DNA of 54,774 bases. It comes from a virus. Below are positions 29,787-37,991 of this stretch, in pieces. How positions within the stretch are numbered: the first letter of the stretch is position 1; each line of letters opens with the position of its first letter. The notes beneath the pieces are model-generated. The model had not been told where the DNA came from, ran no database searches, and was given only the letters and a program-made list of their open reading frames with translations. The stretch lies in the IMG/VR virus record IMGVR_UViG_3300049847_000273, positions 1-54,774 of that record, one strand, 5' to 3'. Position numbers and translations under genes: made by a program.

Positions 29787-31172
29787 TTATTTTAAATTTA
29801 ATTTCTTGATTATTTCTACCAAAACACCTACACAGATACTGTTACCAGCTTGTTTGTAGGCTTGACTGTCGCTGACATCCCAAACAAAATCTTTTACTCC
29901 TGGAATCCCAAAATTAAAGTCCATCAGTTTGAAGCACTCAATTGGCAAAAGCCTACGTATTCTTTGTTGGCTGTAAACGCCCTGATTACATTGAGTATCT
30001 AAAGTTTGACTTACTTTTTTACCAACTCTACCACGTCTTGTTTCTGAATTAGGATTTGAGAAGTTTATAGAATCTTCTTCTTCTTCTTCTGCTATGTCAA
30101 AGCCTTTTGAATTGTTGGTTGGAATCACAACCACATTATCCTTCTGAACTGTAGTCAATGTATTTGAAGTGCCGTTTTCGTTTATTTCAAGCATTTGCTC
30201 GGTTTCTAATCCTGATTTACGGCTTTTTGGGTTTTGTGGATTACGACCTCGTATTGCTCCTATTTTTATTCCTTCGCCTTTATTAGTTGATAATGTTGGA
30301 CTAACTCCTTCATCGCTATAAACATTTCCATTCATTCCATTTCCTGAAGGATTCACATTTGCTAATCTTATGATATTATCTGAAATATCTAATGATTTTG
30401 AACTTGATGTGATTGTAGATGCAACACTTTCTTCATCTTTAAAATTGATGTTTCCGTTATTAAAGTTAGAAGCTCTTGAATCAAAATAATTCAGCATTTT
30501 ATCACTCAAAAAATACTTTTCATCTACTTGATATTCCAATACATCTTTTAGTCTTTTTTCTAGCGGAAATGGCTTTGGGAACACAAAATTATTATCCTCA
30601 TCATCACGAATACCAATGATAAAAATACGCTCTCTATTTTGAGGAATTCCGTAGTGTTTAGCATTTAGTACTTGGTAGTAAATATGGTATGGCACCGAAT
30701 CATCACAAGGAAAAAATGTATGCAGTCCGTTTACTGATTTTCCGCCTAGATAGTTTATCCACTCTTGAAACGTTCTTCCGTATTCTGCTTTTGGATCAAC
30801 TTTGTCGTGAGATAGTAATCCTTTTACGTTTTCAAAAATAAAATACCTTGGTTTATTTTTTTGGATAAATTCCAATGAATTGAAAAACAAAATACCACGC
30901 TTATCCTCTTTACCTAATCGCTTTCCTGCTAAACTGAATGATTGGCAAGGAGGCGATGTCATATAGACGTCTAAACTTTCTTTTGGTATTTCACGTTCGT
31001 AAACATCTTTTGGGAAATACCTTGGAGTACCATAATTTAACTCAAATGTTTGTCTTGCGTACTTATCCATGTCACAAGCAAATAATTCATCATACTCAAT
31101 TCCTAATCTAATTAATGATTGATTAAATGCGCCTACTCCTGAAAAATCAGAACCTATTTTTATTTTTGTCAT
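29787..31172 (-). CDS. DNA (cytosine-5) methyltransferase
   Basis: 461 residues. All main C5 motifs are present: I (SDFSGVGAFNQSL, 8-20), IV with catalytic Cys76 (SPPCQSFSLAG), VI (ENVKGL, 114-119), VIII (QNRERIF, 178-184) and X (QAGNSICVG near the end). The long middle part (about 220-400) contains a target-recognition region with several similar segments (SNTLTT, SPTLST, SQTLDT), a pattern known in multi-specific phage methyltransferases. It probably protects phage DNA from host restriction; no matching nuclease gene is next to it. Confidence 0.9.
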   Translation of the reverse strand: MTKIKIGSDFSGVGAFNQSLIRLGIEYDELFACDMDKYARQTFELNYGTPRYFPKDVYEREIPKESLDVYMTSPPCQSFSLAGKRLGKEDKRGILFFNSLEFIQKNKPRYFIFENVKGLLSHDKVDPKAEYGRTFQEWINYLGGKSVNGLHTFFPCDDSVPYHIYYQVLNAKHYGIPQNRERIFIIGIRDDEDNNFVFPKPFPLEKRLKDVLEYQVDEKYFLSDKMLNYFDSRASNFNNGNINFKDEESVASTITSSSKSLDISDNIIRLANVNPSGNGMNGNVYSDEGVSPTLSTNKGEGIKIGAIRGRNPQNPKSRKSGLETEQMLEINENGTSNTLTTVQKDNVVVIPTNNSKGFDIAEEEEEDSINFSNPNSETRRGRVGKKVSQTLDTQCNQGVYSQQRIRRLLPIECFKLMDFNFGIPGVKDFVWDVSDSQAYKQAGNSICVGVLVEIIKKLNLK

Positions 31173-35283: not shown

Positions 35284-35517
35284 TTAAAAAGGTAGTTTGT
35301 TTTTAGGTATTTTTTCTAATTGACTTCTTAAATAAGTCAAAGACTTAAATTTGCCGTTAATGATATAGCCTATACAGTTATTATTTGTGACTTGTTTTAT
35401 TAATCTACCACTCTTGGAATTGTAACAAAGTCCGCAAGTGGTAAATAAATAATTATTCGCAATTTTTAAACGGTATTTACAAGTGTAATGTACTGTGATT
35501 GTTACTGTTGCGCTCAT
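35284..35517 (-). CDS. Small protein with possible zinc site (77 aa)
   Basis: From the Met at 35517 (MSATVTITVHYTCKYRL). Beta-like first half, then YLFTTCGLCYNSKSGRLIKQ with C-x-x-C, and a basic end. It overlaps the 39-residue membrane peptide gene in another frame at its start and is only 2 bases from the next gene, so it joins the cassette array to the replication operon. Unknown function. Confidence 0.5.
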   Translation of the reverse strand: MSATVTITVHYTCKYRLKIANNYLFTTCGLCYNSKSGRLIKQVTNNNCIGYIINGKFKSLTYLRSQLEKIPKNKLPF

Positions 35518-35596
35518 AGTAAATGTAGTTGTAGCCAATAGTTAGCAGTAATGCTATGAAGTAGATTCGTTTTTTTCTTTCAACAATTGGTTGCAT
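35477..35596 (-). CDS. Membrane microprotein (39 aa) at the left end of the cassette array
   Basis: ATG at 35596, TAA at 35477. Basic start MQPIVERKKRIYF, then a hydrophobic segment IALLLTIGYNYIYYE, then a polar tail. It lies just after the spacer 35637-35723 and overlaps the next gene in another frame. Could be the sixth cassette gene. Layout and position are the only support. Confidence 0.45.
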   Translation of the reverse strand: MQPIVERKKRIYFIALLLTIGYNYIYYERNSNNHSTLHL

Positions 35597-35634
35597 AATA
35601 TTTTATTTAATTTGTTAGTGTAAAAAAGCCGAGA

Positions 35635-35727
35635 ATATAACATACGCTTGTAGCTATATGCTAGAAACTCCCTGCTATTATTCACGATTGCGGTGGCATA
35701 CAGCTACAAGCTTTCCCGTTATAAGTG
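35635..35727 (-). repeat. attC-like palindromic spacer S5
   Basis: Imperfect palindrome: arms GCTTGTAGCTATATGC (about 35645-35660) and GCATACAGCTACAAGC (about 35697-35712) inside ATAAC/GTTAT ends. On the gene strand it begins at the stop codon of the cassette 5 gene (TATAACGGG) and ends GTATGTTATAT. The core words differ most from the other spacers. Confidence 0.6.
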
Positions 35728-36030
35728 ATTTTCTGAAAGACGAAACTCAACTAAAGTAGAAATCCACGTTTCGGAATAATTATGTGTAGTTCCGTCTTTA
35801 AAAAAAACTTTATAAATAACGCTATTTGCTTTTTCGTTAATGTGGCTATATTCTAACTTTTCAATTGGCTTTCTTTCGTTTTTATCGCCATAGCGAGTAA
35901 ATGTTTTTTCAATTTTTATTTTATCAATATTGCCTCCATATTTAAAATATTCGTGTAACCCAATCTCCTTATAAAAACCACTTATAACAGTCGTTTGTGG
36001 TAATTGGGTTTCTGTCTTTAATTTATTCAT
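35719..36030 (-). CDS. Cassette 5 gene: hypothetical protein (103 aa)
   Basis: Met at 36030 (MNKLKTETQLPQTT) is the likely start; the extension to 36102 runs into the spacer. 103 residues, basic, with a beta-rich body (SHINEKANSVIYKVFFKDGT). Stop codon TAA is the first part of the next palindrome. No membrane part and no known family. Confidence 0.55.
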   Translation of the reverse strand: MNKLKTETQLPQTTVISGFYKEIGLHEYFKYGGNIDKIKIEKTFTRYGDKNERKPIEKLEYSHINEKANSVIYKVFFKDGTTHNYSETWISTLVEFRLSENHL

Positions 36031-36084
36031 TGTTTTGTATTTGTTATGATTAGTGATTATTAGGTGATTCGGCTTACTTTTACG

Positions 36085-36115
36085 CACTAACCACACAAGC
36101 AAAACGTTAGGGCAA
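36085..36115 (-). repeat. Shortened attC-like spacer S4
   Basis: Only about 31 bases: CACTAAC (36085-36091), ACACAAGC, then GTTAGGGCAA (36106-36115). It has both core ends and part of the inner box found in S3 (ACACGCTACAAGC) but lacks the stem between. It looks like an attC site that lost its middle. Confidence 0.55.
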
Positions 36116-36118
36116 ATA

Positions 36119-36556
36119 CTACATTTTGCTCATTAAAGAGCAATAATTTTCAATTGCATTTTCAAAGGTATTTCCAAAAGCATAGTTTTCGCTTTCTTGT
36201 AGATTTATAAAATCTAAACCATGACAGCAAAATTCATTACCGTCTTTTTCTACTTGTATTTTCCACCATTCTTTTTGAACATTACTTTTATTACACGAGT
36301 CACATACAAATGTTCCTCCGTAAGAAAAAGGGAAACAATCTGATTTCTCACATTTGAAAACGTATGTAAATGCTATTCCATCTTCTTTTGCCATTTTTTT
36401 AGCGTATTCAAAACCTTGCGTTTCTAAATACCATTGTCCAACATTTCCATAATCAGCTTTTTTTGGTTCTGAACCTCCATTAATAAACTGATTAAATCCT
36501 GCACAAGTTGAAGGACTAGCTTTAATTAAATCTTGAGCAAATTTTAAATTTTTCAT
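36119..36556 (-). CDS. Cassette 4 gene: cysteine-rich hypothetical protein (145 aa)
   Basis: Met at 36556 (MKNLKFAQDLIKASP). 145 residues with 8 cysteines, including KCEKSDCFPF and FVCDSCNKSN; the two CxxC-like pairs plus the later CC suggest a zinc-binding fold. No family is recognised. Stop is followed within 3 bases by the R''-like core TTGCCCTAAC, as in integron cassettes. Confidence 0.6.
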   Translation of the reverse strand: MKNLKFAQDLIKASPSTCAGFNQFINGGSEPKKADYGNVGQWYLETQGFEYAKKMAKEDGIAFTYVFKCEKSDCFPFSYGGTFVCDSCNKSNVQKEWWKIQVEKDGNEFCCHGLDFINLQESENYAFGNTFENAIENYCSLMSKM

Positions 36557-36583
36557 AATAATTTTTAGTTTAATAATACGTAC

Positions 36584-36724
36584 TTGCCCTAACACACGCT
36601 ACAAGCAAGCTCGGCAATTGACTGTATTTGTTAATAATTTTGTACTTGTTTATATTTGTTTTTTAACCGAAAGATTACGCCTCTTTAATCCCAACCTGCG
36701 TGTAGCGCGGGAACGTTAGGGATA
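36584..36724 (-). repeat. attC-like palindromic spacer S3
   Basis: About 140 bases. On the gene strand it starts TATCCCTAACG..GCGCTACACGC and ends TGTAGCGTGTGTTAGGGCAA; outer and inner boxes are mutually inverted. The loop is AT-rich and contains AACAAGTACAAAA and ATTAACAAATAC words shared with S1. Confidence 0.75.
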
Positions 36725-36740
36725 ACCGCCTAGATTGTGG

Positions 36741-36977
36741 CTAAAGCCTATCTCCTTCTGTATCTCCAGAAGTATCTTGTCTTATCATTTTTTCAGTACC
36801 TTCTCTTGGAGTAAATGTTACATTTTTTCCTGCCTTTAAGTGCGAACCTCCTTCTGTATGAATATATTTATTGCTAACAGACAAAACTTTTGCACCTTTG
36901 TAATTTGTTCCTGTTAAGTTTGCTTCTAAATAATCTCTTTGAAATGAATTTGCATTTCCGCTAATTTTTTTTGACAT
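36741..36977 (-). CDS. Cassette 3 gene: hypothetical protein (78 aa)
   Basis: 78 residues, basic N-terminal (MSKKISGNANSFQRDYLEAN), Gly-rich middle (GGSHLKAGKNVTFTPREG) with a repeated beta pattern, and ending RQDTSGDTEGDRL. No membrane segment, no Cys. Family unknown. Upstream junction GTTAGGGATA and post-stop core TATCCCTAAC are exact reverse complements. Confidence 0.6.
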   Translation of the reverse strand: MSKKISGNANSFQRDYLEANLTGTNYKGAKVLSVSNKYIHTEGGSHLKAGKNVTFTPREGTEKMIRQDTSGDTEGDRL

Positions 36978-37012
36978 AATTTCAATTTTTATTTGATTAA
37001 TGTTTCGTGGTA

Positions 37013-37095
37013 TATCCCTAACACTCGTTACACGCTCCAGCCGAAACTATCCAGCGTGCTAGGCTGGCATCGTGTAGCGAGGGGCCGTTGTAGGC
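37013..37095 (-). repeat. attC-like palindromic spacer S2
   Basis: About 83 bases, the clearest palindrome of the set. On the gene strand: GCCTACAAC..CCTCGCTACACGATGCCAGCC, loop of about 20, then GGCTGGAGCGTGTAACGAG..GTTAGGGATA. Inner arms match over most positions with a one-base bulge, as in classical attC sites with an unpaired base. Confidence 0.8.
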
Positions 37096-37100
37096 AATGG

Positions 37101-37289
37101 CTACGATTCCGTTTCAATTGAACTATTTTTAGATGCATTTTTAAGGCATCCAATTTTAAACGCATCATTGTAATAGGATAATAACCCCATCACTTCAAAA
37201 TCTGAAAAACCATCTACTTTAAAAGATGTTTTAGTTCCATCTTCATTTACTTCTTGTTTTATTACAATTTTTTTAATTTCTATTTCCAT
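37101..37289 (-). CDS. Cassette 2 gene: hypothetical protein (62 aa)
   Basis: Met at 37289 (MEIEIKKIVIKQEVNEDGTK); the extension to 37409 would translate the spacer. 62 residues, beta-like start, then helix DFEVMGLLSYYNDAFKIGCLK. Such short proteins resemble small phage-host proteins but no family is recognised. Stop is 5 bases before the core GCCTACAAC. Confidence 0.6.
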   Translation of the reverse strand: MEIEIKKIVIKQEVNEDGTKTSFKVDGFSDFEVMGLLSYYNDAFKIGCLKNASKNSSIETES

Positions 37290-37318
37290 AATTACTTTTA
37301 GTTTTAAAACCCGCCACA

Positions 37319-37453
37319 GCCTACAACAGCAGTTACAAGACAAACGGGCATTTGTTATTAATTTTTTAATTGTTTTGTACTTTTTAGTTTTGGTTTTTAA
37401 TCGAAGCATAAGGCGTACTTTTCCTTAACTACCGTTATGCTTTAACGTTAGCA
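37319..37453 (-). repeat. attC-like spacer S1
   Basis: About 135 bases. On the gene strand it begins with TGCTAACG and GCATAACGG and ends TTGTAACTGCTGTTGTAGGC. The stem is weaker than in S2 and S3. The AT-rich loop contains GTACAAAACAATTAA and ATTAATAACAAATG, similar to S3. Confidence 0.55.
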
Positions 37454-37459
37454 GTAATA

Positions 37460-37771
37460 CTACGAAAATCGTAAATTAAGACTACATAATCCGCAAATAA
37501 TACCCAATATAAATATTATCAAAATACGTCTTGCATGATTTGATTCTAATCTCCATTCATCAGCTATATTAGTATAAATAAGAAAAAAAATAGTATAAAT
37601 AAAAAATACTAAAAGCGCAAATTGTCTTAATTGTATATTTTCTTTTAGTTCAAATATCCATTGCCAAGGGTTTTTAAATTCAAATATTAAAAAAGACCTT
37701 ACTAAATAAGATACCCAATAAATGCCGTTTGATATTAAAAAAATATCTTTTACTTTGTTTTTAGTTGTCAT
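37460..37771 (-). CDS. Cassette 1 gene: membrane protein (103 aa)
   Basis: 103 residues with three likely hydrophobic segments (about 12-31, 51-67 and 82-98; e.g. FALLVFFIYTIFFLIY and RILIIFILGIICGLCS). It may be an inner-membrane protein; family unknown. First gene of the array, behind the array promoter. The stop codon lies 7 bases before the core TGCTAAC. Confidence 0.6.
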   Translation of the reverse strand: MTTKNKVKDIFLISNGIYWVSYLVRSFLIFEFKNPWQWIFELKENIQLRQFALLVFFIYTIFFLIYTNIADEWRLESNHARRILIIFILGIICGLCSLNLRFS

Positions 37772-37801
37772 AACATATTTATTTTTAAAAATCCGTACTA
37801 T

Positions 37802-37808
37802 TGCTAAC
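37802..37808 (-). repeat. Upstream junction core of cassette 1
   Basis: GTTAGCA on the gene strand, the reverse complement of TGCTAAC after the stop of the same cassette (37453-37447). The region further upstream (to about 37880) contains GTGTTAGTACC and the short hairpin CCTG..CAGG and might include an attI-like or residual site. Confidence 0.5.
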
Positions 37809-37934: not shown

Positions 37935-37964
37935 CAAATATATAGTTTTATTTTAATACACAAA
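37935..37964 (-). promoter_or_regulatory. Promoter of the cassette array
   Basis: Minus strand TATATTTG (37942-37935) with TTTG at 37964-37961, 18 bases apart. It reads into the array and lies just downstream of the terminator of the lysis genes, as an integron Pc promoter would. The 283-base gap 37772-38054 holds this promoter, a roughly 150-base leader and that terminator. Confidence 0.75.
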
Positions 37965-37991
37965 ACTTTTATTTGTTTTTTTTAATAAAAA

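Follow-up and report, generated by a model that had tools for sequence, protein, structure and literature searches.

The stretch of viral DNA that we analysed, hereafter the window, comprises the 54,774 nucleotides of the IMG/VR record IMGVR_UViG_3300049847_000273. It derives from a virus of Flavobacterium-like bacteria, and its terminase shares 60% identity with the one of Flavobacterium phage FL-1. Five gene cassettes and a truncated sixth occupy the minus strand from position 37808 to about 35480, and their features are given here in the direction in which the genes are read:

37935..37965, minus strand: promoter-like elements, presumably of the Bacteroidetes type, before the array (TTTTG at 37965-37961 and TATATTTG at 37942-37935; read from the sequence)
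37799..37808, minus strand: upstream core of cassette 1, GTTAGCAATA, preceded by a short AT-rich stretch and not by a hairpin
37460..37771, minus strand: cassette 1 ORF, 103 aa, hydrophobic, by eye resembling a membrane protein, with all family matches below cut-off
37447..37456, minus strand: downstream core of cassette 1, TACTGCTAAC (sequence, core matching)
37328..37446, minus strand: hairpin S1, the 5' part of cassette 2, with a weak inner stem
37318..37327, minus strand: upstream core of cassette 2, GTTGTAGGCT (sequence, core matching)
37101..37289, minus strand: cassette 2 ORF, 62 aa, no known family
37087..37096, minus strand: downstream core of cassette 2, TGCCTACAAC (sequence, core matching)
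37023..37086, minus strand: hairpin S2, the 5' part of cassette 3, folding well as circle form
37013..37022, minus strand: upstream core of cassette 3, GTTAGGGATA (sequence, core matching)
36741..36977, minus strand: cassette 3 ORF, 78 aa, compared with its homologue in locus L035
36715..36724, minus strand: downstream core of cassette 3, TATCCCTAAC (sequence, core matching)
36594..36714, minus strand: hairpin S3, the 5' part of cassette 4
36584..36593, minus strand: upstream core of cassette 4, GTTAGGGCAA (sequence, core matching)
36119..36556, minus strand: cassette 4 ORF, 145 aa, with homologues in loci L001-L004
36106..36115, minus strand: downstream core of cassette 4, TTGCCCTAAC (sequence, core matching)
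35989..36105, minus strand: hairpin S4, the 5' part of cassette 5, weakly folding, in which ORF 5 starts (ATG and first codons)
35979..35988, minus strand: upstream core of cassette 5, GTTATAAGTG, inside ORF 5
35719..36030, minus strand: cassette 5 ORF, 103 aa, whose leader MNKLKTETQLPQTT comes from the hairpin and is fused to the cassette body
35718..35727, minus strand: downstream core of cassette 5, CACTTATAAC (sequence, core matching)
35642..35717, minus strand: hairpin S5, the 5' part of the truncated cassette 6
35632..35641, minus strand: upstream core of cassette 6, GTTATATTCT, without a visible downstream partner ahead of the 133-aa gene
35477..35596, minus strand: ORF remnant of cassette 6, 39 aa; onward from here recombinase and attI-like site are absent

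The promoter-like elements are assigned by the consensus of Bacteroidetes promoters, and their activity is a prediction. Neither Pfam nor PHROGs gave anything above cut-off for the five cassette proteins of the window, Rfam returned nothing at the gathering threshold, and a megablast of the region against the INPHARED phages found no match.

The initial annotation had described this region as an array of five genes in which a cassette's upstream core is the reverse complement of the core behind its own stop codon. All eight core words that it gave for cassettes 1 to 4 are in place on the minus strand and the pairing holds for these four; a fifth pair (GTTATAAGTG at 35988-35979, CACTTATAAC at 35727-35718) had been overlooked, as had the truncated sixth cassette that starts with GTTATATTCT (35641-35632). 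For cassettes 1 to 5, the own cores match at 9, 9, 10, 10 and 10 of 10 positions, the complementarity of R'' to a cassette's own R' that marks IntI-type integrons. Cross pairs average 5.6 of 10. Random gene-sized intervals of the window reach at least 9 in 0.46% and 10 in 0.14% of cases, and when the cores of just these five cassettes are permuted (5x5), the own pairing ranks top with 48 of 50, the best other pairing reaching 44. Past the core, in cassettes that were picked by matching cores, position 11 is mismatched, in most cases as G.T, and 3-4 more pairs follow; the G.T is present in window cassettes 1, 2, 4 and 5.

Folding was computed as DNA, which cannot separate attC-like hairpins from terminator or transcription hairpins. 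The annotation had proposed to fold S2 and S3; S2 folds well in its circle form (z -4.8) and S3 less so (z -2.6), the fold of S4 is no better than those of shuffles (z -0.4), and the inner stem of S1 is weak. Window cassette 3 and a cassette of locus L071 gave attC-like folds. An inner stem of at least 6/7 is present in 171 phage hairpins, which thus have the L''/L' stem with unpaired spacers of an attC site.

With the RecA-like gene next to the array as query, we found 27 related viral loci. Unchanged genes in unchanged order among relatives had been named as evidence against mobility; the five cassette genes of the window are missing from all 27. Directly before the 133-aa gene, four relatives (L007, L008, L009 and L012) carry other small genes, which likewise have core pairs of their own, in the order cassettes, tyrosine recombinase (267-276 aa), 133-aa gene and RecA-like gene, and the gene upstream of the array in L012 is the same as in the window (62% identical). 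As other cassettes occupy the same place in these four phages, we regard the site as a variable cassette locus of this phage family. The copy in the window has probably lost its recombinase end; a tyrosine recombinase (PF00589) has no match anywhere in the record, and the attI motif described below is absent from the window. Its hairpins stand at five junctions and PF00589 finds nothing in the record, so that the window can be classed as a CALIN (at least two attC sites, no integrase nearby).

Scanning viral sequences with the L012 recombinase gave 77 loci, picked by protein similarity only. Near the recombinase and on its strand, 228 cassettes lie upstream versus 4 downstream, at least one cassette being present at 55 loci; among cassettes picked by matching cores, 185 with 10/10 cores are found on the recombinase strand versus 9 in reversed sequence. 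Between the last cassette and the recombinase lies an attI-like half-site, AAC|TAYTATATRTA, conserved in 56 loci. The R'' read at this attI has a partner of at least 9/10 at 88% of 52 loci versus 12% when R'' is swapped between loci, and this is the one set of counts made without selecting cassettes by matching cores. An attI beside a recombinase and joined to cassettes is hence a feature of the sister phages and not of the window, and together with the recombinase it sits at the downstream end of the array, not upstream as Pc and attI do in integrons, which corrects the initial annotation. A row of cassettes also ends at the integrase of a named isolate, Polaribacter phage Leef_1.

The phage recombinase has no IntI-specific insert, as this insert is defined in PMC9668308, and possesses the catalytic residues known for the family. 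The IntI model TIGR02249 scores 137-164 bits against the sister-phage recombinases, in two split stretches and with a cut-off of 265; the best family match is NF040815 (XerA_Arch), likewise below its cut-off, and all family cut-offs are missed. PHROGs labels the protein an integrase. In a phylogenetic tree, 51 of 54 phage recombinases form one clade (support 99/96) apart from IntI and from XerC/D, and those of Leef, Freya and L106 have long, uncertain branches. In host genomes the protein is rare, with 1 of 396 Flavobacteriales at E <1e-62. The cores, earlier described as close to but not exactly GTTRRRY, do not follow this consensus: in cassettes picked by matching cores, 129 of 228 cores have T at position 5, and positions 6-10 are nearly free. 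For this reason, and because the insert is missing from the recombinase, the phage system is not an IntI integron; the earlier integron-like reading holds, with this correction.

Which gene a hairpin belongs to was decided by comparing cassettes, picked by matching cores, across loci. Homologous genes in different loci have the 5' hairpin alone in common in 8 pairs and the 3' hairpin alone in none; conversely, of pairs of similar hairpins, 12 of 127 are followed by a common gene, whereas a common gene precedes them in 0 of 57. A cassette found in L053 and L071 is 93% identical from the preceding AAC region exactly to its own AAC, past which the next hairpin follows in L053 and the attI half in L071. 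The canonical orientation, in which a hairpin is owned by the preceding gene, was rejected on the sharing of similar hairpins and on this breakpoint, and with it falls the annotation's view of the spacer as follower of the gene before it. Its caution about ordinary terminators without exchange is answered by homologous cassettes in other contexts, which lose similarity at the AAC boundary. Some homologous genes (two pairs) stand behind different hairpins, which may have come about by divergence alone or by exchange, now and then, on the GTT side.

Cassette genes are read towards attI, and not away from it as in IntI integrons. Spacer asymmetry points one way in 165 of 171 phage hairpins and is reversed in 7 of 7 chromosomal ones (L126-L128), and the position-11 mismatch of the R stem, G.T on the gene strand in phages, appears mostly as its opposite-strand counterpart in the chromosomal set, a side of the comparison that consists of few cassettes from three genomes. 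Judged by these marks, the cassettes are inverted relative to both attI and attC.

The hairpin also appears to contribute coding sequence. In 59 cassettes an ATG lies 30-66 nt before the core with a frame open through the core, and in 23 of them the 90 nt that follow the core contain no in-frame ATG. A near-identical leader, MNKLKTETQLPQ, occurs in the window, L033 and L034, each time fused to a different body; in window ORF 5 there is no methionine beyond the leader, the body having none of its own. The cassette 3 protein has an 85% identical homologue in L035, in a cassette with a different core pair. Homologues of cassette 4 are flanked by cores in L002 and L004, with one mismatch in L003, and occur as an ordinary gene in L001. 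When genomes were scanned with cassette 4, the sole finds were a Mu-like prophage region of Chryseobacterium (L036) and a single contig filed under a Nanoarchaeota MAG (L037); no cores were seen around the homologue in the latter, which looks like phage DNA and may be misbinned. The prophage-like region of Chryseobacterium sp. MFBS3-17 (L036, 4880-7180) holds a methyltransferase cassette with a core pairing of about 20 nt, and two of its ORFs have the leader MENKQKS..QQCNVS in common.

We consider it probable, at about 85%, that Bacteroidota phages encode an integron-like system for gene capture and that the window carries its cassette array, in a copy devoid of the recombinase end. The array, the pairing of its cores, the attI motif, the association with a recombinase, the unit boundaries and the marks of polarity are read from the sequences themselves, and from them the following working model can be drawn. 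An intact locus consists of repeated units of hairpin, GTTRNNNNNN, gene and NNNNNNYAAC, followed by the attI-like half AAC|TAYTATATRTA and a 267-aa recombinase, all in the same direction. One cassette is a hairpin, a core, a gene and a core, with AAC at each boundary. Once it is circularised, pairing of its two cores across the hairpin would give an attC-like structure of single-stranded DNA with a 10-bp R stem, the position-11 mismatch, 3-4 pairs, an asymmetric spacer and an L stem, and the recombinase would insert the circle beside itself at AA|C (G|TT on the other strand). Seen from attI, this is integron geometry with the ORF reversed, each gene being read from its own hairpin, which often supplies the start codon, towards attI. 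From sequence comparison we infer that cassettes move as circles, that these sites are substrates of the recombinase, and that it is the coding strand which recombines.

An ordinary CALIN, in which a phage has picked up cassettes of a host IntI integron that are mobilised in trans by the host's IntI, is an alternative explanation. In its favour, IntI is above cut-off in 105 of 395 sampled Bacteroidota genomes, and IntI1 has been reported to recombine an attC of Polaribacter phage P12002L in E. coli (PMC9892861). This frequency of IntI is higher than we had expected. However, arrays of the sister phages adjoin their own non-IntI recombinase and its attI, GTTRRRY is missing from the cores, and the polarity of the cassettes is reversed, which together make a borrowed host array improbable.

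Still less plausible is a recombinase that serves lysogeny next to a coincidental array, although PHROGs names it an integrase and the authors who described the Polaribacter phages Leef, Danklef and Freya took it as a sign of temperate life (PMC8776804). A lysogeny module would have a fixed attP and no array; here the array lies directly at the recombinase, the cassettes are almost confined to its upstream side, and the conserved half-site adjoins a variable one, which is part of the last cassette. Non-mobile gene-terminator repeats, or transcription signals that pair by chance, would fit the stable hairpins of some spacers, between which and attC sites DNA folding does not discriminate. Yet it is the distant cores of a cassette that pair, not just bases within one hairpin, and the breakpoints fall exactly at AAC while gene content varies at one locus, so that we assign this explanation a negligible probability.

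The gene-capture system favoured here has several relatives. CALINs in phages have already been published: the arrays of P12002L (Qi et al. 2023, PMC9892861) are likewise integrase-less arrays of Bacteroidota phages with methyltransferase cassettes, and their attC sites were noted to have divergent directions; in the parts of that paper that we consulted, neither a cognate recombinase of the phage nor an attI is described, and inverted cassettes are not mentioned. Both P12002L arrays (L122, near 29250 and 37270) continue with the same sequence after AAC, AACGGATAAAACAAG..., possibly a second type of attI with no recombinase. Chromosomal arrays that we found in Weeksellaceae (L126, L127 and L128) have an XerA-type recombinase, 43-46% identical and also without the IntI insert, the R stem of 10 bp, mismatch and 4 bp, and ACATATA before G|TT in the attI half in common with the phage system. 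They differ in that the recombinase lies upstream with attI at the 5' end, the genes are canonical and read away from attI, the hairpins are uniform and VCR-like (116-118 bp), and spacer and mismatch polarity is reversed. With IntI integrons the phage system shares an attI beside the recombinase, attC sites with paired R and L boxes and the own R''/R' match; the insert, GTTRRRY and the direction of the ORFs set it apart. XerA, XerC and XerD resemble the phage recombinase in family match and catalytic residues, but it is linked to cassette arrays and its clade is separate from XerC/D.

It is likely that Bacteroidota phages possess a separate class of integron, with a XerA-like recombinase lacking the IntI domain, an array that ends in attI on its 3' side, attC sites that recombine through the coding strand, and a hairpin, often with the start codon, before each gene. 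Among open PubMed Central papers, to which our search was confined, we found no earlier description of the dedicated recombinase, its attI or the inverted polarity, and priority is uncertain. Such phages would gain a dedicated platform for gene capture rather than borrowed cassettes. DNA methyltransferases make up 5 of 10 searched cassette proteins (mostly long ones), which suggests a role of the cassettes in counter-defence. The IntI domain is put in question as a hallmark of cassette recombination, the inverted cassettes would be a naturally occurring inversion with which the choice of attC strand can be tested, and our data suggest that some phages called temperate for an integrase may not be so.

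Ahead of the array, the window (37960-37840) and L012 (3250-3370) have a leader with GTTCGG...CCGAAC-type pairing, the motif TTAGTACC and a T run, which may be a regulatory RNA or attenuator; among the loci examined, the motif occurs nowhere but in the window and in the L012/L038 contig. Elsewhere in the window, a C5-methyltransferase gene (29787-31172) resembles by eye cassette genes of L039 and L041 (SDFSGVGAF), and this gene may be a cassette in some genomes and an ordinary phage gene in others.
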